Source of the DNA: Bolinopsis microptera
Taxonomy: Eukaryota > Ctenophora > Tentaculata > Lobata > Bolinopsidae
NCBI RefSeq assembly: GCF_026151205.1
Contig: NC_087076.1
Coordinates: 9,772,902 to 9,836,901 of the forward strand
Length of the DNA: 64,000 nucleotides
Direction: 5' to 3'
A model generated the notes under the pieces. It did no database searches, was not told the DNA's origin, and saw only the letters and a list, made by a program, of their open reading frames with translations. The stretch's first letter is position 1. Every line of letters begins with the position of its first letter. Of the stretch, positions 1 to 59,724 are shown in pieces. Both the position numbers and the translations under genes were made by a program.

Positions 1-1177
1 ATAATTAACGAAAATTGTCCAATTGGTATTTCGAAAATCGGTAAAAAATTAAAATGTTGATTACGTAATCAACGACCAAACCCCCCCCCCCCCCCCCCCC
101 GTAATCAACCGTAAGCATTTGAAACCCCCCCTCGGCTGATTACGTAATATGTGATCGACCCCTAAATCATGATGCATGATGTGCAGTTGCATTGCCTCAT
201 TGTAGATATTATTTTGTTTTGTAGTTGTATTGTGCAAATGTAATTGTAAGATCAAATATATTTGATATTGATGTAAAATTTATTTGTATTTTGAAACAAT
301 AATAAGTTATTGACAGCCTGTGGTTGTACTTGTATGTTGTACTGCTACTTTGAGTCGTTATTTTTGCTTCCTACATTGTATAATATGTATATCAGATATA
401 TAATACAGTAAATGAGCAAAAACTAAAACATTGATTTACCGGCGCGGCCTTTACCTATGGCTATATTTATAACCTTTCTCCCATGATACAATTACAAATT
501 ACTCCGCAGTAAATTGGGCTTTTACCAATTACTTTATCTGGTACTGGTAGTAGCACTGCCACTAGTAGTAGCCTGCAAAGTTTGACTTTTATTACACGAA
601 CGGTGCGTCTCAGTTTTCTCTTATCGGAAATTTGATGCCATTACCATGCTAATGTCAGGCAAAAGTTAATATTTACCTTTTGCATTTTCAAAAGCTGAAC
701 ATTGATGATGTAATACTATGTCATTCTCTAACGTATACTTAGTCATGAGAGTCGGCAGCATTTTAGTTTGTTTCATTTTTTGTTTTACTTTAAAATTTAT
801 TATTATGATTTTACTGGATTAGAGAATCTACAAGTACAATTCCCAACTTGTATAGTCCAATCATGTTATTCTGGAATCGTCTTTTGATCGCCTTTTCAAC
901 CACCTTTCAATCGCAACCGATGTAGACAATGACATAATGAAGACAATGACATATCCGATATCTTTAGATCACAACAAATTTTCCTGCTGTGTTTCAATAA
1001 CTTGTTCTATGAATATAAATGTGCTGAAAGAATGGCATATTATGCAAAGTATTCATATCCTGCAACAGTACGCTGAGAAAATAGCACAAGTTTATGATCA
1101 AATTCAATGATGAGTCGCGTTGTGTAAATTTTGAGCGTATTATTTATGATTATCTAGTTTTTCCTTGTGTACTCAAA
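1..1177. other. Upstream non-coding region of the MACPF gene
   Basis: I see no convincing coding exon here. It contains the poly-C and TACGTA-repeat patch annotated separately near the left edge. The rest is AT-rich sequence that should include the promoter of the gene starting near 1178. No clear TATA box or initiator could be assigned. Confidence 0.5.
55..150. repeat. Palindromic TACGTA repeat around a poly-C tract
   Basis: An 18-bp perfect palindrome, gttgattacgtaatcaac, is followed by a run of about 21 C. A further cgtaatcaac copy and a gattacgtaat copy follow within 80 bp. Inverted and direct copies around a C-run look like the remains of a short foldback or MITE-type element. The sequence shows no coding capacity. 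Confidence 0.5.
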
Positions 1178-4100
1178 ATGTACCCAAATCAGGCGGTGTG
1201 CACCATGTACAGCTTGTTCGTCTTGCTTGTGCTAGGAGTATTGCTGGTACAGAAAACTGACTGTGATACGGTGACGTCGCTAGGGGAGGCATTCAACATT
1301 GGAACGGTTAGTCTGCCAATCATTTTGCATATTTAATATAATCTGCCTTTTTGTTATTTCCGTTTGAATTTTGATGTCCCCTCCCCCTCCAACCGCCACT
1401 TTGCACATAAAGCTTTTAACCGTTTTATATGCCAGCGTAACACGTCCCCTCCCCCATAAGCTGCTTACAATCTCTAGACTCTAGTACAGGATTTTGTGTC
1501 ATAATATTTTGCTACTCAGCGACCTGTTTCCCCGGCCGGTCGAATGTAATTCATTTGTACAGCTCGTGTTACCTGTACATGCCTGAGCTGCTTATCTCTG
1601 GCAAAATCTGAAACTCATTACACGACTCAGTCTGCATAACTCTGTACACTAAGAGTAAGAACTTACTCGAAATTCAAAAAGTAAGACCTAATTATATTTA
1701 TAATGCTAGACTACCCAAAATTATGTCCGTTCACATGGAAATGTCCGCCAAAATTGAAAATAAGATCCGATAATATATATATAATATATATATATTTGAG
1801 ACATTCAGTGAAACAGTAAAACACGAAATTCACATTGAGCTATCGATTGTGTAATCTTTACATGTCTCATTCTGAAAGCAAGTTTATTAAAATAACTGTT
1901 CTATGAAGTAAATTAAAAACATGACAAAAATAGATCAATACTGAGATGGGAAATTTGTGAGTAAGTCTCATTCAATCATAAGATATAAACAAAAGATGCA
2001 GAGGTGAAAGTAAACATCAAAATGCAAGTGTCTGTGGAAAGATTAATATTAAAGCATATCATATAAAGGTCAATTTTTTATTTCATTAAGAGCACTACGT
2101 TTATTAAGTCCTCCAAAATCACTGAGGGTCATAAGCTGGTTTTGCCAAAATGATTCTCTTTCTTTAGCAACCCTACTTCTATCTTCTAAGATTAAACATT
2201 TTATAAAATCTAGCTTTTCAAAAATAATAACCTCTATCTGATCGGATAACTCATTGTCAAACGTTTTTAAGGGCTCTTTGGTAAGATTATGGAACTGGTT
2301 ATCGTTAAAATGACAAGAAATTTCACAACTCCTAACCGCTTTCCTAATATGTGATTTGTGGTTCTGCCATCTGGTCTTAAAATTGTTAACTGTGCTTCCT
2401 ACTGAAGCACGTCTGCAGACTTTATCCCTTACTAGATAGCACACCCCTACTGTGTTGCAGTCTAGTTGTCCAATGATGTTAACAGTGTACCCCGAGTGGT
2501 AGCTCTGAGCTGTTTTTGATTCACAAATATACATTCTACAGGCTTTACATCTGGAGTTACAATGATAACATCCCCCCTCTTCTATACTAGTAGGCAGAGC
2601 CACATTTTCAGTGTTAGAGTTTAAAGCTATAACATTACTATCTTCATGATACTTACGATCTTCTGAAAGTTTACTCGGAACTAAAGTTTCTTTGATAGTT
2701 TTATTACCACGATATGAAACAAATACTTTACTAGGCTGGATCACAGACTTTAAAAGAGGGTCTAGGCCAAGGATAAATTTATTCTTGTTAACTATTTTAC
2801 CAATTGGAGGTAAGTTAGGGTCAAAATCACAAACTAAAGGAAAACATCTTTCACTCTTCTTAATATTAGAGCTTGTAAGGTTTTTTGAAATCAGATCATC
2901 CCGTTTAAGTAACTCAACTTTCTCAAAGGATTTATGGATAAGATCTTTATTGTAATTCCTATCGTCTAGATATTCACTAAATTCAATTTTACATTTCAAA
3001 TACTCTTCTTCCTCTGAACAGTTTTTGAACACTCGATGTGCTACTCCATATGGAATATTCTCTGCTATGTGTGTAGGGTGGCAGGATTGTGGGAGTAAAT
3101 AGCTATGGGCATCACTAGGTTTGCAGTACGTCCTAGTTTCTAGCTTGCAATTTTTCGAGTAAATAAACAGGTCTAGAAATTCAGTCCCCTCTGTAGAAGG
3201 TGTCGACATTGTAAACTTGAGGTTTGGATGGTATTGATTGAGCCAAAGTAGGAACTGGTCTAGCTTCTCCAGTGACTCAGTCCAGGTGATGTATATATAT
3301 ATTATAATTATATATACAAGGTATGATTATAATTATATGATCCTTATCACCAGATAGAATTAGACGGGGTTGTAACTGGAGGGAAAAGCGTGTTCACCAA
3401 CCTGGCCCCCTCTTGTTTCCATAAGGAAGAACTGAAAGAGACCACTAAAAACTACAAAGTCTACACCGATCACCAAGAGTTTGTTCACGTAAGAATTTGC
3501 AACAAATTTTATTTTGGACGGCCGTAATTTATAAAAAACGCAAAGAATTTCTCAATTATTAGTCATTACCACCCAAAATCATGCAGTCGTAAGACGTACG
3601 CCGAGGGTTTAAAGTACATTTCACTCTTTTATTTTACACTGATATTAATGTTTATAAACCAACTGTTTGTTAGTAATAGTAACGATATACACAGGAGATA
3701 GCATTGAGCGTAGGGCTGACATCTAAAGAACTCGGAGGTAAAGGAGATATTAGCACCAAGTACCTGAAGTCAAGAAGTACAGAGACTTCTGGAACCGTGG
3801 TCGAGGTTTGTTTTTATTATTAATGTATTAGTATACAGGATTAAACAGGATTAAACAGGATTAAACAGGATTATCATATGCATATGTGTCTTAATCATAT
3901 ATCTGATCGGTAGATTACTAATTCGGTTGAAATGTTTTGACTATGATAAGGCTGAATCAACATACAGCTGAGTCAAATGTTCATAGAATTTTTATTGGAG
4001 TTGTGGTTGCTTAAGGTCATTGTTTTGACCATAACGTGTTGATAATTAACTGTACCAGGTGATATATTTGAGAGAAAGAGAAACAATATCGGACGAATGC

Positions 4101-6356
4101 CTCGAGGAGTCCACATTTGATTCCCAAATCAAACATGACCTTAACAAGCTACCTTACCCGATCAGGAAACCTCACCAGCGAGCACGATGGCTGCCTTATG
4201 ATGCGTTCATCCACAAGTTAGTTCTTTTAATAAACTTCTATTGGTTATAGGTTAAAGCATTTAAATGATATTTACTGGTATCCTCTTTAAAGCTGATCCA
4301 TTGCAACATTCATATCGACCGTTAGCGAATTGATCTGATATAGGCTAACCATAGGTGGGGAAGTCATATTCTTAAATCAACTGATTCTGGAGCAAAAGCT
4401 ATCTTTCATACAACCAAAACCAAGGAATCGACAACGGACAAAATGGAATTGAAAATTAAGGTAGGAAAACAAATTTGAAAAATTGCAATAGTTATACAGA
4501 TACCTAAATTGTAAATTAAGTGATACATTATTTTATCAATATTGGCAGTTGAAGTATGCAGTAGTATTATTAATTTCTAATTTGGGATCCCAATTGACTG
4601 TTTGCAATAGTATAACTAAGTAATCCTGTCTTGTGCTATTAACAGTATATAACAGTTAACACTAAACTCACTAATGTCGCTGTAGAGAAATCAGCCAAAA
4701 CTGCGAAATTGCGGTCCAGGAAAGCATTTTGGTGATGTTCAAAGTTTTGTCTTTGGTAATTCAGCTTCTGATCTTACAATTAAACAGTGTTTTATATTGA
4801 TACTTGAAAAGTTGAAAGTAGGATCAAACTTTAGCTTTATATTTGCAGCTGTGTGCCAAGTTTCCTGAGCTAGCTTTAGATGGTTGTGTGGATACAGGGC
4901 CCAAGACATCTACCAAAAAAGAGACCTCAGATGAATCAGACGAAGTGTTTGTGATAGGTAATCTAATACAAAGATCTCACTTATCGGATATATATATTTT
5001 TGGGTATGTTTTAAATGTCGAACCATATTTTTAGATAAAAGTGAAACAAAAGGATATGTCCGGATACCATACTATTACTAATAAAAACATAACCAAACCA
5101 GGAGGATCGATACCAACCCAAGACAAGTTGAGAGCAGGGCAGTTCACTCCGGAGGTATTGGATTTGTTGGCAGCAGAGGCAGCTGAGCACCAGGCCCCGA
5201 TAAAGCACCAGTGGTTTAGCTTACCTGAGGTGAGAGTTATATAATACTATTCCGGTTTAATTTACTTGTAAAACTCAAACATTCCAATTATAATAAAAAC
5301 AAGAAAAGGAGCTTCAACGCTTTGTTCCCAATCACGTCAAATTTCAAATTAGAGTCAATTCAGAGTTCGATTTTCGAATCCAAAACCAGAATCCGAATCC
5401 AAAACCAAACCAAAACCCCTGGCCTAGTGGCTAGTGGCAATAATCATAACCCGATCTACAACAGCTGCTGCTGAACCGAGCTATGTTTGACGCGGAGGAT
5501 GGGGAGATCCAGCGAGCCACCGCTCTGCTGTCTTACTACAAGGGATACCACGTGTTTGGGTGTGACCACCACGTGGTAGAGAAACAGAACCACACCGTCT
5601 TCGTTAACGAGGGGGACGACGAATTCCCCATTTACAAGTGCTTACAGGTTCCGTATCTTGCCAATATATTCTTATTTTTTATGTATAGTACGGCAGTCAC
5701 CTCATTCACCACTTAATTAAACATCTAACCACGTATTAAGACTCGTTTATGTAACTGTTCAAATGTTTTTCAACATCACTCTTTTTAGCTGAGACCCGGG
5801 TGTATGAGTGATACTGACTGTATAAACTGGCCTGTCAAATACATGGGACCGTGTTATTGTGCTGGTAAAAGCTGCATGGCTATCAAAAAGGAGGGAAAAC
5901 AGGGCACACAATCAGCGGTATTTTAAGAATTATTTAATTTATCAATAATAGTTAATAATAATTAGTAATAATAACTATTGATTATTTTCATTTGCACGGC
6001 CGGTATAACCGAACTGGTTATCTAAATAAGAACACGTGGTGTTATACCGTGTACTGTGCCTCCTACTACCCGCTTCTATCAAACAGGAACTGATAAGAAG
6101 GTCCAGCCCAGTGGGGAAGTTCCACGACCCAATTAACTCGCTGTGTAATTGGAGCGGTCAAGGAGGCTGTTCCTGCGATAGAGGAGAATTGGAGGAAGTG
6201 TGGCCCCTGGGGTCCATCCTTCTCAGGAGCACGAGAGTTGAGAAACCTGTTAATTGGCTCCTCGTGTTGTTTGTAGTAGGGATTGTGGTGATGTTAGCTG
6301 GGTTCGGGTTCTGGGTTAAGAAGAGATCGGACAAATCTAAAGCTAAACCTGAATGA
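1178..6356 (+). CDS. MACPF/perforin-like single-pass membrane protein (ten exons)
   Basis: Exons read from GT-AG sites and frame continuity: 1178 (or ATG 1205)-1306, 3354-3488, 3695-3805, 4059-4216, 4355-4460, 4849-4950, 5035-5229, 5465-5647, 5789-5917, 6087-6356. From ATG 1205 all ten join in frame to about 496 residues. The N-terminus is a signal peptide (MYSLFVLLVLGVLLV). The middle carries the MACPF signature FIHKWGSHIL, matching the family's Y/W-G-T/S-H core, preceded by a Gly-Gly stretch (VVTGGKS). The end of the domain is QAPIKHQWFSLPELL. A Cys-rich segment (GCMSDTDC, CYCAGKSC) and a C-terminal membrane segment (NWLLVLFVVGIVVML) follow, with a short basic tail. MACPF proteins form pores. 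A membrane anchor recalls macrophage-expressed protein 1 (perforin-2), but assignment to that subfamily is inference. A donor at 4951 (gtgata) is needed to keep frame. The gene converges with DIP2. Confidence 0.75.
2070..3290 (-). mobile_element. 5'-truncated Penelope-like element (3' part of RT plus GIY-YIG)
   Basis: This open frame lies antisense in intron 1 of the MACPF gene. It continues upstream of its first ATG (3209) to about 3285, where it stops at a TA-repeat. It begins inside the reverse transcriptase, with WLNQYHPNLKFT followed by KLETRTYCKPSDAHSYL and the SCHP motif typical of PLE RT thumb regions. A Cys cluster (CYHCNSRCKAC) and a GIY-YIG-type endonuclease follow (CYLVRDKVC, ASVGST, then R and NHKS). 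The catalytic RT palm is missing, so it cannot transpose. No stop codon interrupts the remaining 400 codons, suggesting recent insertion. It ends at 2070. Confidence 0.85.
3836..3873. repeat. 10-bp tandem repeat (aggattaaac)
   Basis: Nearly four copies of aggattaaac lie just downstream of MACPF exon 3, inside an intron. Confidence 0.8.
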
Positions 6357-45125: not shown

Positions 45126-48000
<2,875 letters not shown>

Positions 48001-48641: not shown

Positions 48642-48668
48642 CTCCCCCCCCGGCCCCCCCCCCCCCCA
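48642..48668. repeat. Poly-C tract
   Basis: A nearly pure C run interrupted by one GG. Confidence 0.95.
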
Positions 48669-48796: not shown

Positions 48797-50178
48797 TTAA
48801 GGGGGGGGGTTCACCCTGATTTTTTTGTGAAACTTGGTTTCGAGATAGCAGTTGACCAACAAACTAGGACCAGTGACCAAACTTTTGAGGGGGTCCCGGA
48901 CCCCAACCGCCAAACGGTGCCCGCGGGGCTGCCACGCCCATATTTGGTCCAAATCAGGCCCAATTTAGCCAAATACCCTGAACATGCCCAAAACCCAGAT
49001 TTTAGGTGCTTTACTTGTAGCTAGTGGTCCCCTGAACTCGTATATGAAGTTTCATCAAGATTGGACAAAAAATGACTGAGTTATGAGCTAAAAACTATAT
49101 GCCCATATTTGGGCATACGCACTAAATTTGATCGATTTTGGCCCATAAATTGGTCAAATATCAATATTTTTGAATGAAACTAACTTTATATGAAAGGTAA
49201 GCCTAAACTACACATTCTCTATGATTATCAGCTCAATATCTACCTAACTGTGGATTCTGTGTCCAAATAATCGCAAAAAATGAACAAAATCGCCCATATC
49301 TCAGTTCGCGATATTTGCAAAACTGACTTCGCTCAAAACAATAGAACTCAATAGGGTTTCAATATTTTTTCATGAAATTTTCAGAATCAACGTAGAATTG
49401 TCTCATGACCTTAAGTTTTGGGACAGAATTTTGAGTTAGGCCTTTAAAAAAATTTGGCGGCCAAATTCTGAAAAATGCCCGGCAAATTTTAGAATTTGGC
49501 CGCCAAATTTTTTTAAAGGCCTAACTTAAAATTCTGTCCCAAAACTTAAGGTCATGAGACAATTCTACGTTGATTCTGAAAATTTCATGAAAAAATATTG
49601 AAACCCTATTGAGTTCTATTGTTTTGAGCGAAGTCAGTTTTGCAAATATCGCGAACTGAGATATGGGCGATTTTGTTCATTTTTTGCGATTATTTGGACA
49701 CAGAATCCACAGTTAGGTAGATATTGAGCTGATAATCATAGAGAATGTGTAGTTTAGGCTTACCTTTCATATAAAGTTAGTTTCATTCAAAAATATTGAT
49801 ATTTGACCAATTTATGGGCCAAAATCGATCAAATTTAGTGCGTATGCCCAAATATGGGCATATAGTTTTTAGCTCATAACTCAGTCATTTTTTGTCCAAT
49901 CTTGATGAAACTTCATATACGAGTTCAGGGGACCACTAGCTACAAGTAAAGCACCTAAAATCTGGGTTTTGGGCATGTTCAGGGTATTTGGCTAAATTGG
50001 GCCTGATTTGGACCAAATATGGGCGTGGCAGCCCCGCGGGCACCGTTTGGCGGTTGGGGTCCGGGACCCCCTCAAAAGTTTGGTCACTGGTCTTAGTTTG
50101 TTGGTCAACTGCTATCTCGAAACCAAGTTTCACAAAAAAATCAGGGTGAACCCCCCCCCCCCCCCCCCCCCCCCTTAA
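48797..50178. mobile_element. Foldback/palindromic element between TTAA target sites
   Basis: Two arms of about 670-680 bp (48801-49469 and 49491-50174) are near-perfect reverse complements around a 21-bp spacer. In the stretches I compared base by base there is roughly one difference per 50-100 bp. The outer ends are a G-run/C-run (9 G left, 24 C right) followed by gttcaccctg and its complement. TTAA occurs directly outside both ends (48797-48800, 50175-50178), the target duplication used by piggyBac-group transposases. The open frames on each arm are mirror images and encode nothing recognisable. It is non-autonomous. The class assignment rests only on TTAA and the inverted ends. Confidence 0.85.
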
Positions 50179-54175: not shown

Positions 54176-54671
54176 GTTATTGAAAGAGTGCTCATCGCAG
54201 GACGTCGTGCGCTCCTTTAGGAATGTCGTCTGTCTCTTGGAATCTAATGAATCTGAAACATAAACATAGTTAGTGTTTACTTACCTAACAAAGTTAACAG
54301 AGGTATTCGCTGTATTTACGCGGCTAATTTCACAGTACCAAGACACTACCAAATGTCGTCTGTCTCTTGAAATGTAATGAATGAGCATCGTTAACACACT
54401 GAACTAATAACACAGGGAACGCTGACACAATTATTTGTCGACTCTAATCGGTCATATTTCACATCACCGAGAAACTGCCAGTTAGGATTAACTTTATTTG
54501 TTGAAGAGGTTACAGCTGGTGGAGTCACTAGGTTAGAGGAGACTCATTACTCTCTATAATATACTGAACACAATAGAGAACAGTGTTTTGAAGTGTGCCA
54601 TGTGTGTGTGATGAGGAGTTCTTAGTAATCAGTGCTCCTTACACTTAATGAGGAGCAGACTGGTCTCCCTC

Positions 54672-54868
54672 AATCCCCCGCCACCCCGCCAACCCCCCCC
54701 CCCCCCCCCCACCCCGTCCCCGTCCCCGTCCCCCGTCCCCCCGTTATAATATGACGCATATTCAATAATGATTTACTACTGAGGGATTCAGTCACTGCAA
54801 TTAGTGGAAGAGGGGCTATACATACTACTTAATATACCCATAGACCCTTCGGGGGGGGGGGGGGGCAC
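54672..54868. repeat. C-rich block followed by a G-run
   Basis: A polyC and ccccgt-repeat block lies at about 54672-54742. A run of about 17 G lies at about 54849-54866. The two could pair with each other or form quadruplexes, which is an inference. Confidence 0.85.
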
Positions 54869-55951: not shown

Positions 55952-58900
55952 TTGAAAAATACTATGAATTTACAATCCAAAATTATAAGCTGGAACATCC
56001 AATCAACAAATACAAATTTTGGCTCTAAGTTTGATGACCCTCAATTTTGTGCCGTCTTTGACAAGTTTCCTTTTGTCTGCCTTCAAGAAATAAGACAACC
56101 GGTCAAACACTCGGGCTTCAGGTCCTTCAATAAAACCCGCCGGGACAAAAAACATGGTGGCGTATGCATCATGGTCCAAAACGAAATAGTCAAAGGCGTA
56201 AAACTTGAAAAATCCACAATTGAAGATGTTGTTGCCTGTAAACTTGAAAAAAATTACTTTGGCGTAGATAATGATATATTCATTGTTAACTCATACATTA
56301 AGCCAGCTAACACTTCCTCTAAAAACTCAGATATCTCGGGCTTTGACACCATCCGTGAACTGGACCAATTTCTTAATGTTCTTCTAAGTAAAGGCGATGT
56401 AATTACCTGTGGTGACTTCAACTCGCGTATCGGCCATGACATTGACTTCATCAAAGGAGAGAAATGTGGCTACGAGAGCTTCATTCCCCTGCCAGAAGAC
56501 TACACCCCCCAAGAACTCCCAACCAGGAACTCAAAGGACAAAAAGTCGAACAATTACAAAAGACCCTTTCTAGAAATGCTTGTCAATAATGAACTCCATA
56601 TTCTCAATGGGAGAACTTTAGGAGACTCATATGGTGACTTCACTTGTATCCAGACCAGCGGTGCCAGCGTTGTTGACTACTTTATTATATCACCAAACTG
56701 CAGTAAGTATGTATGTCATATGACAATCCAGCCGTTCACTTGCTTTTCTGATCATAAACCACTACTCCTGGCACTCAACTTCTCTCCTTCCAACATTCTT
56801 GTAAACACAAAGGCACTCCATGAAACTTACGCTCGAGCCCCACTTCGTTACAAAATAACTCCTGATAGCCTTTCAAGCTTACGGGATACAATGATGGACC
56901 CACTTGTGGAAGAATGTTCCAAAACCCTCTTAGAAACAGATTATCCCGAAGATCTCCTAGGTACATACAAATTGAACGAAGATATCACAGTTCACTTGAA
57001 CAAAATAGCAGACAAATGTCTCCAAAAGACCAAACATCCCAAAATAACCAAAAAGGGATCCATAAATAAACAACCCTGGTTCACACAAGCCACTAGAGAA
57101 GCTAAAATATCCTGTACTCGTGCAGCTCAAATTGTTTCTGATTTCCCCAATAGCGATTATCTTCGAAAAAATTTTTACCAAGTAAAAAATACGTACAAAA
57201 GTTTAATTGACCGTACCAAAAACAAATATCTTGACAAACTGAATACAGATATCGAATCTGGTAAAATTCTAAACTGGAAACAATTCAAAAAACTGAAAAA
57301 ATTTAAAGGAAGAGTTGACAAATTTGATTGCCATGACATGGACAACTTTCAAAAATTCTTTGGTAAACTTTATGCCAATGCACATAGCACCATAACTGTA
57401 GAGAATAAGGAAGAAATGCTTCAAAATGCAGAGGCTATTAACAATAATTGCCAACCATCCCCTGCACAATCAATACTCAATGGCCAGATCTCTGTGGACG
57501 AAATATCTACTGCGCTCTCTTCACTCAAAAACGGCAAAAGTTCCTCGGAGGATATGATATGCAATGAAATACTGAAGACCTTGTCCACAACAAATACGCA
57601 ACTCCTTTGCAAAGTATTTAACCGCTGTTTGGACACTGGAACTTACCCGTTGAACAACAGCATTATAACACCCCTACACAAAAAAGGCGACAAAGATAAT
57701 CCCGACAATTACAGAGCAATTGCTGTGAGTAGTACAATCGGGAAACTATTCTCGACCATTATGCTAAACAGGATAATCAAGTTCAAAAATGAATACAACC
57801 CGGACCCCATAAATCAACTTGGCTTCGCTAAAGGAGCTCAAACATATGACCACATACTCACACTCAACACCATTACGTCTAAATACAAAAAGCTCAAGGT
57901 TCCCGTCTATGCTGTTTTCGTGGACTTCCGGAAAGCTTTCGACTCTGTTTGTCGTGAAGCTCTTTTCTTAAAGTTAGCTAAACTAGGTATCACTGGCAAA
58001 ACATTTAATGTTCTTAAACATATGTATAAAAATTCCACTGGCCAGATAAAGCTATCTGGATTTGTCAGCGAAAAATTTGATATCAATAAAGGAACTGAAC
58101 AGGTCATCCACTTTCCCCTGATCTTTTTAAAATATACATTAGAGATCTTTCCCCTCGACTAGAATTTGATAACTGTCCAAAACTAATGAACCAACTTATC
58201 AGTCACTTACTATGGGCAGATGATCTGATACTCTTGGCACTGGACCCCAAAACCCTCCAAAAGCAACTCGATGCTTTGAACAATTTCTGCTTGGAATGGG
58301 GCGTCGAAATTAATGCAGATAAAACTAAACTCACGAAATTTAATTCCCGCTTCGATAATTATCAGCCGGTTCCCCTCAAAATAGGTAATCACTTGTTAGA
58401 AGAAGTCGAGTCATACTGTTATCTAGGAATCGAAATACACAAATCTGGCACATTCACAAATGCCCGAACTGAGCTCAAAAAGAAAGCCATGCGTGCACTT
58501 TATGGCATGAAAAGCTCAGTAAACAAATCCAAATTATCATTCCGTTCTCTAACAACACTCTTTGACGCTCTTATTAAACCTATCGTTCTTTACGGAGCGC
58601 CTATTTACACACCTAATATGGCTATCATAAAACACATAACAAAACAAGTCGATCTCAATATGGATCCCGACACAAAAACAAAATTTCAAACTAGTATCCT
58701 CAAGAAAATTAGTCTTCTGAACAGCGAAAAAGTTCACCTTCACTTTCTTAAATGGTCACTGGGTGTAAATCGTAAAACCAGCAACGCAGGCGTCTGGGGT
58801 GAGTCAGGCCGCTACCCATTAATCTATGAATGTATTAACCTCACTCTCAAATATACCCAACGCTTGAAAAATCTCAAAGATAACTCCCTTGTATCCTTAG

Positions 58901-59724
58901 CTTTCAAAGAACAGATGAACATGAAATTGGACTGGTACAGGGGTTTGGAGCCTGTCCTCGCGCTAGACCCATGTTTCTCTACCGATCATGTCACAGCCTA
59001 CCGCACACTCAAAAACAATCACTCCAAGTCAATTTTCGAAAGAAACCCGAGTATCGCAAAACCACCAAAAGAGGACTTTCTTATTCACAACGGTTTCAAG
59101 AAACGAATTCCTCCGCAATCAACACAACCCATCGGGAGTAAAATATTCACACCACACGTCATTACTAAAACTTTGAAAAGTAGCTTTAGAGAATATTGGG
59201 GGTCCTATATCAACACTTCTCGGAAATTAGAATTCTATCGTGACCTAAAATCCAAATTTAACAAAGAGTATTACCTAGACAGTGTCATTAAATATGCAGA
59301 CCGTGCTAATATCACAAGACTGCGGATCAGTGCACATCGACTCGAAATTGAACTTGGCCGATACAATCAAACTCCTCGCGATGAGCGAATATGCTCCTGG
59401 TGCAATATAGTCTTAGGTTCGGGTATTATTGAGAATGAAGATCACTTCCTTAACCATTGTGATCTTAACGCTGCATCAAGGCGAAAAGTCCTAGACAAGA
59501 TCCAATCAATCATATCAAATTCAATCAAACCATCTGCGTCATCTTGTTCTGTTTACACTGTCATCCCTGGAGCAAACGTCCTCAAATTCATCAGCAGCAA
59601 CAGTGAAATCATTGAATTAATCACGAATGAAAGTCAAGTCCACCTCACGAGAGTCGTTGCTAGATTTGCCACTACGTGTTTTAACAACCGCAAGAAATTC
59701 GTCGACTCTCTGGCCAGTACATGA
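55952..59724 (+). pseudogene. LINE ORF2: APE endonuclease and reverse transcriptase, one frame change
   Basis: The first frame (55952-58162, 736 codons) starts with an APE-type endonuclease: SWNIQS, CLQEI, CGDFNSRIG, VVDYFI and SDHKPLL. The RT follows (LKNGKSSSEDMI, IITPLHKKGDKDNPDNYRAI, LGFAKGAQTYDH, and motif A VYAVFVDFRKAFDSV). A one-base shift at about 58098-58102 breaks the frame before the expected GxPLSP-type motif B. The second frame (58186-59724) resumes at motif C with LLWADDLILLA (WADD for YADD). It continues through the thumb to a zinc-knuckle-like CSWCN...HFLNHC near the C-terminus. Apart from this single shift the coding region is open, so inactivation looks recent. About 30 bp separate ORF1 and ORF2. 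Confidence 0.85.

Follow-up and report, generated by a model that had tools for sequence, protein, structure and literature searches.

Several described systems offer points of comparison for the palindrome analysed here, and piggyBac-like transposons, which target TTAA, are one of them. Kolobok elements and their non-autonomous copies, in the available text of PMC9587614 and PMC6004289, resemble the present element in duplicating TTAA, in their 5'-RR...YY-3' termini, in giving rise to non-autonomous derivatives and, it may be, in a transposase motif of the C/DxxH type. Kolobok elements have a left and a right end, however, whereas the element described here has two left ends and forms a full palindrome with a central hairpin and terminal G homopolymers. 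Galileo of Drosophila shares the long inverted repeats, copies that lack a transposase and consist of two repeats, and a model in which repair copies one end into the other (PMC3573991), but it belongs to another superfamily, P, and its copies are described as bounded by 7-bp sites, whereas here the sites are TTAA and the join lies at a parental hairpin. A fold-back structure built on long inverted repeats is also known from Foldback elements and from the root-knot nematode element Tm1 (PMC3169594). Their ends are different, and no internal tandem repeats were seen as the basis of the present arm. The piggyBac-like MITEs of corals, according to the available portion of PMC2872659, are short non-autonomous elements linked to piggyBac-like transposons and form tandem arrays, to which the repeated copies at L031 and L060 may be likened; they contain a conserved internal region, whereas the present element is a pure palindrome with other termini and another transposase. 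Finally, the fold-back inverted duplications of yeast start from a short inverted repeat that, once folded, serves as the primer for an inverted copy (PMC10622511), although that case concerns chromosome rearrangements under defined mutants and not a transposon.

The palindrome lies in a window of 64,000 nucleotides of Bolinopsis microptera DNA (Table 1), and its existence is confirmed. The original prediction of arms of about 670 bp with few mismatches holds, the arms without their outer tracts having five mismatches per 670 bp (left-arm positions 48867, 49433, 49470, 49474 and 49475); with the tracts, an inverted-repeat search pairs 48801-49479 with 49481-50159 at 99% complementarity and 1 nt apart. 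The 21-bp spacer given earlier is the same structure counted otherwise, since three of the five mismatches sit at the palindrome centre and, if taken as spacer, define 49470-49490. Direct reading also agreed with the earlier account of TTAA exactly outside both ends and of terminal tracts of unequal length. As RNA, the element is predicted to fold into one near-continuous hairpin of -1279 kcal/mol, a value for a sequence of over 1000 bases that has no shuffled sequences beside it for comparison. Lacking a transposase gene, consisting mostly of inverted repeats and being present in many copies, it fits the MITE or fold-back class. No match was returned by an Rfam search of the window or by a search of a phage collection with the window arm. 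Elsewhere in the window, two neighbouring open frames with endonuclease and reverse-transcriptase domains (55952-59724) appear to make up a LINE-like retrotransposon, and 46458-46820 is occupied by a CA repeat, 363 bp long, that matches its repeat unit at 99%.

Table 1. Components of the palindromic element, in window coordinates
Feature	Position	Strand	Basis
TTAA, left copy of the target-site duplication	48797..48800	.	direct reading of sequence
Left terminal tract, 9 G	48801..48809	+	direct reading of sequence
Left arm (670 bp), homologue of the parental left end	48810..49479	+	sequence comparison
Central hairpin with 24-nt arms on either side of a single base, 49480	49456..49504	.	sequence comparison
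Right arm, 670 bp, the same left end inverted	49481..50150	-	inverted-repeat search
Right terminal tract of 24 C, read as G on the minus strand	50151..50174	-	direct reading of sequence
TTAA, right copy of the target-site duplication	50175..50178	.	direct reading of sequence

The element belongs to a dispersed family. Compared with the genome (264.65 Mb, 232 contigs), the window arm yielded 85 arm matches from the 40 candidates scored out of 2003. An end motif of 25 bases has 614 occurrences at no more than two mismatches (303 and 311 by strand), its reversed control having none in the same genome. The check proposed with the original prediction, whether other copies lack TTAA at their boundaries, found it immediately beyond the G tract at 72 of the 86 family ends scored. 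These ends were taken from loci L001-L066 minus 17 that repeated a site already included; the motif TTCACCCTG[AG][AT]T recognised 88 of them, ends that had lost it being outside the count, and two with a tract shorter than 4 bases were set aside. Among the 14 ends with no adjoining TTAA, the right end of L011 has its TTAA after a 162-base tract, beyond the limit of the script, one end each of L027 and L051 reads TTAA, then GA, then the G run, and 11 have different sequence at that place. Where exactly one left and one right end were scored, TTAA stands on both sides at 28 of 33 loci.

Family members vary in completeness and arrangement. Five loci (L062, L063, L065, L067 and L068) are palindromes in which one arm, or each of them, is cut short towards the centre while both G tracts are retained, which suggests a hairpin shortened by deletion. 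At L031 (C3:17646500-17652700) and L060 (C1:12160400-12161100), element copies and fragments are clustered with repeated junctions, in the manner of tandem arrays. Two sets of candidates for full-length copies were rejected: the widely spaced inverted ends of L057, L058 and L059 proved to be arms interrupted by extra DNA, a reverse-transcriptase fragment in L057 and, in L058 and L059, DNA in which no transposase was recognised by eye; and of the elements ending in GGCTGGGGG, a sequence present at some family ends, those fetched as possible parents (L067, L068, L069) were palindromes or deleted palindromes.

For insertion itself, the flanks of 18 copies were joined around a single TTAA and searched against the genome. 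Among the best 40 of 909 candidates, 2 of the 18 flank pairs had ungapped empty sites carrying one TTAA, at 99-100% identity, in at least 39 places for L003 and in one for L048; L003 is inserted within another repeat, the other copies of which represent the empty site, and this repeat took nearly all of the 40 scored candidates, the other 16 flank pairs being hardly covered. These ungapped matches to flanks joined at one TTAA show that TTAA is duplicated upon insertion. The exact position of the cut is what we infer from this, as a 2-bp duplication inside a fixed TTAA, by an element ending in A...T, would look identical. Together, the TTAA ends and the empty sites bear out the claim of a mobile fold-back element that targets TTAA.

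The parent was located through its transposase. A profile search of the genome with Pfam PF20700 gave 18 matches, three of which were examined for ends; this profile, labelled Mutator-like by Pfam itself, was assumed to cover Kolobok transposases, an assumption that guided the search. Two matches (C1:1679927 and C1:1717649) lie 2.5 kb inside end motifs at C1:1677428 and C1:1715149. The first parent copy (L072, positions 104 to 4985) is 4.9 kb long and bounded by TTAA sites, and its right end has only the G run and TTCA in common with its left end. A second copy 38 kb away (L073) has the same flanks and so arose by duplication of the L072 insertion. It lies beside pieces of an HMG-CoA reductase gene, and one base is missing from its right TTAA. 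The left 663 bp of both copies are 93.8% identical to the window arm. The C11 parent (L074, L075) spans 5.4 kb end to end and has TTAA, 9 G and TTCACCC on the left and TTAA, 9 G and TTCATGT on the right. In the C9 parent (L076) the left end is the same as in those of C1 and C11, with an arm 94.0% identical to that of the window over 670 bp; its right end was not found within the 1 kb examined. No arm was present in L070 or L071. The parent's left end, TTAA-G-run-TTCACCC, is thus the left end of the palindrome, whereas its right end, TTAA-G-run-TTCATGT, differs and has no counterpart in the window palindrome. A search with the parent interior (40 of 84 candidates scored) gave four long matches, the L072, L073, C11 and C9 copies, and 37 further matches to the hairpin alone. 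The parent is accordingly known from three independent insertions (C1, C11 and C9), that on C1 being also segmentally duplicated, and no single open frame was seen for its gene in the copies examined.

The junction between parent and palindrome is a hairpin. The arm shared by L072 and L073 stops at an inverted repeat of 24 nt with a single base in its middle; this hairpin (L072:781-829), about 670 bp from the left terminus, corresponds by sequence comparison to the centre of the window palindrome. Beyond it the parent continues into its own body, whereas the palindromes reverse direction there and retrace the arm as far as a second left terminus. Two of the three parent insertions (C11 and C9) contain a partial inverted arm, which reaches down to arm position 172 and is followed by about 170 nt and then by the body, while the C1 parent is without it; L072 may be a deletion product of the C11/C9 form, or the C11/C9 form may be an aborted turn-back. 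Because the parent is still present in the same genome, the origin of the palindrome can be read from sequence, and the window element is probably a non-autonomous full palindrome made of two left ends of a 4.9-5.4-kb Kolobok-type parent, formed by fold-back and moved by the transposase of that parent.

Under this scheme, a break or stalled synthesis in the parent would allow the hairpin to fold on itself and serve as a primer, from which the left end would be copied right through its terminus, giving a product of left end, hairpin and left end. The parent transposase would recognise the left end, so that the left-left element could be excised and inserted at TTAA with no right end. Later copying between the arms would keep them alike in at least some copies, and the G tracts would change in length in place. 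Fold-back priming has a precedent in breaks near natural inverted repeats in yeast, according to the available part of PMC10622511, and repair copying that extends one end into the other has been proposed for Galileo in the accessible portion of PMC3573991.

Against a fold-back origin from the parent count the numbers: four long parent-interior matches (40 of 84 candidates) stand against hundreds of palindromes. The palindrome may instead have come first, the parent capturing its left end from a palindromic element, for example through recombination beside a transposase gene; two of the three parent insertions do have a long part of a palindrome at their left side, and parents are greatly outnumbered. 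We nevertheless think this order improbable, as the compound left end is old in the parent, the inverted arm and the next ~170 nt being common to the C9 and C11 copies at 92.9% identity. The C1 parent, with a short hairpin only, is explained equally easily by either order; as that parent has no inverted arm and the gene no single open frame, the order of events given here is tentative.

The identity of the mobilising transposase was the point on which the original prediction, correct as to a fold-back element that is mobile, recent and duplicates TTAA, probably went wrong in naming the piggyBac group. Long elements with matching ends (C1 and C11) carry pieces of PF20700 transposase. The first piece, which includes DGSW, matches the profile with 56.0 bits, and the second reaches 17.6 bits, below the cut-off of 26.5; the piece with CVEH, when searched against profiles, gave no PF20700 match and only WH1 at E = 0.062. 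DGSW and the CxxH-like CVEH were recognised by eye in different pieces of the same element, and no third catalytic acid was recognised beside them. The pieces may be exons or the remains of a decayed gene. Between C1 and C11, dN is 0.040 and dS 0.121 for the 140-aa DGSW piece (23 differences), and 0.024 and 0.234 for the 124-aa CVEH piece (22 differences), which, for the few sites compared, suggests that the pieces are under constraint. MuDR or Mutator elements produce target duplications of about 8-11 bp, which does not agree with the 4-bp TTAA here or with joined flanks that match empty sites ungapped. The termini of the window element, L072 and the C11 parent are GG...CC and thus follow the 5'-RR...YY-3' rule, which the available text of PMC9587614 gives for Kolobok in contrast to piggyBac, the same source listing the C/DxxH motif as common to Kolobok, hAT, P, MuDR and Dada. 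TTAA duplication (72 of 86 ends, 2 of 18 empty sites), purine-purine termini and the CxxH-like motif are the grounds on which element and parent are provisionally named Kolobok.

TTAA duplication would suit piggyBac equally, and the genome does contain 26 matches to PF13843, the best four of which cover the whole profile, so a fold-back element of the piggyBac group, moved by a piggyBac transposase of the same genome, has to be considered. It is nonetheless unlikely: the long elements with matching ends at C1 and C11 have PF20700 pieces and not PF13843, exact end motifs (first 100 of 614 motif places) occur less than 10 kb from two of six PF20700 matches on C1-C4 but from none of the five PF13843 matches there, and the GG...CC termini are unlike the piggyBac kind in the accessible part of PMC9587614. 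The four full-profile copies (C11:19206792, C12:12037630, C3:2419766 and C9:2752794) lie in open frames of 678 or 681 aa and, having near-equal scores, were perhaps recently active.

Harbinger elements duplicate 3 bp. Still less credit is due to a Harbinger-like transposase as the mobilising gene, although at L051 a DDE_Tnp_4 (PF13359) frame (1198-1845, E = 1.7e-32) begins directly after a truncated arm and hairpin: this is one copy only, its partner right end was not recognised, three other TTAA-G-run insertions have PF20700 instead, and the target here is TTAA. An arm 6.8 kb further on in L051 pairs with a short opposite arm beside it and looks like a separate deleted copy. An assembly fold-back, although long palindromes are a known type of artefact, can be dismissed, the arms differing, the copies being many and TTAA standing on both sides; since the flanks of copies elsewhere are unrelated to each other on the two sides and empty sites are ungapped, both chance and assembly fold-back are excluded for the family.

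The terminal homopolymers are a weaker guide to history than they seemed. At TTAA-flanked ends the G tracts range from 6 to 162 bases, and the end motif TTAAGGCTGGGGGTTCACC occurs at family ends in 25 exact places and three with one mismatch, its reversed control giving four matches at no more than one mismatch; the homopolymer may derive from GGCTGGGGG. The genome contains 22,667 ends of G-runs of at least 12 in 264.65 Mb (clustered runs counted apart), of which only 400 are followed by TTCACCC and belong to the palindrome family, so that poly-G looks largely like a host trait. In the duplicated C1 copies the left tract has 30 versus 9 G and the right tract 77 (with one A in it) versus 20, figures that depend, as all homopolymer lengths do, on sequencing quality; tract length therefore appears to change in place. 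Both observations weaken tract length as a mark of transposition, and unequal terminal tracts, which had been read as a sign of recency, are not one in themselves. For a genome whose GC content in the window is ~38-39%, poly-G/C tracts are extremely common; two examples in the window lie at 48644-48667 and 54667-54742.

A better sign of recent mobility comes from the arms. Among L035, L036, L038, L039, L040 and L048, an arm may have only 1 difference in ~670 from an arm of another copy, which upholds that part of the earlier reading, whereas 5 to 14 differences separate the paired arms within a copy; because differences between copies are smaller than those within, the palindromes spread as units. 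The idea that arms are generally more alike within than between elements fared unevenly, the nearest arm lying in another element for many. Among 22 complete palindromes, 21 private substitutions are present in both arms, where ~0.2 would be expected by coincidence, and 123 in one arm only; "private" is judged on the sampled copies alone, so unsampled sisters could account for part of them. Copying between the arms of a palindrome is thereby suggested. Arm and inverted arm are separated by 10 differences in 499 sites in the C11 parent, whereas the arms of the C11 and C9 parents differ at 68 of 669. The corresponding pair in the C9 parent shows 51 differences in 499 sites, which counts against inter-arm copying, as do the many palindromes whose nearest arm lies in another element. 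No column sets the arm apart from the inverted arm in both parents. It is tempting to see the parent's left end as a self-renewing palindrome, in which hairpin-templated copying resets the arms and sheds left-left elements that need no right end, but this we regard as doubtful.

In the full-text literature searched, a scope outside which most subscription literature and Repbase lie, no title or beginning of an abstract dealt with a Kolobok-type palindrome of two left ends. The origin of palindromic transposons is usually inferred with no parent at hand, whereas a single genome here contains the palindromes, the parents, parental copies with part of an inverted arm, and the hairpin where the arms join, so that three points become testable one by one: origin by fold-back, whether a right end is needed, and inter-arm copying. 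The stability of palindromes could also be studied on these many natural 1.35-kb examples, and if self-renewal were true, break repair or transposition, beyond youth alone, would keep 1.35-kb palindromes near perfect.
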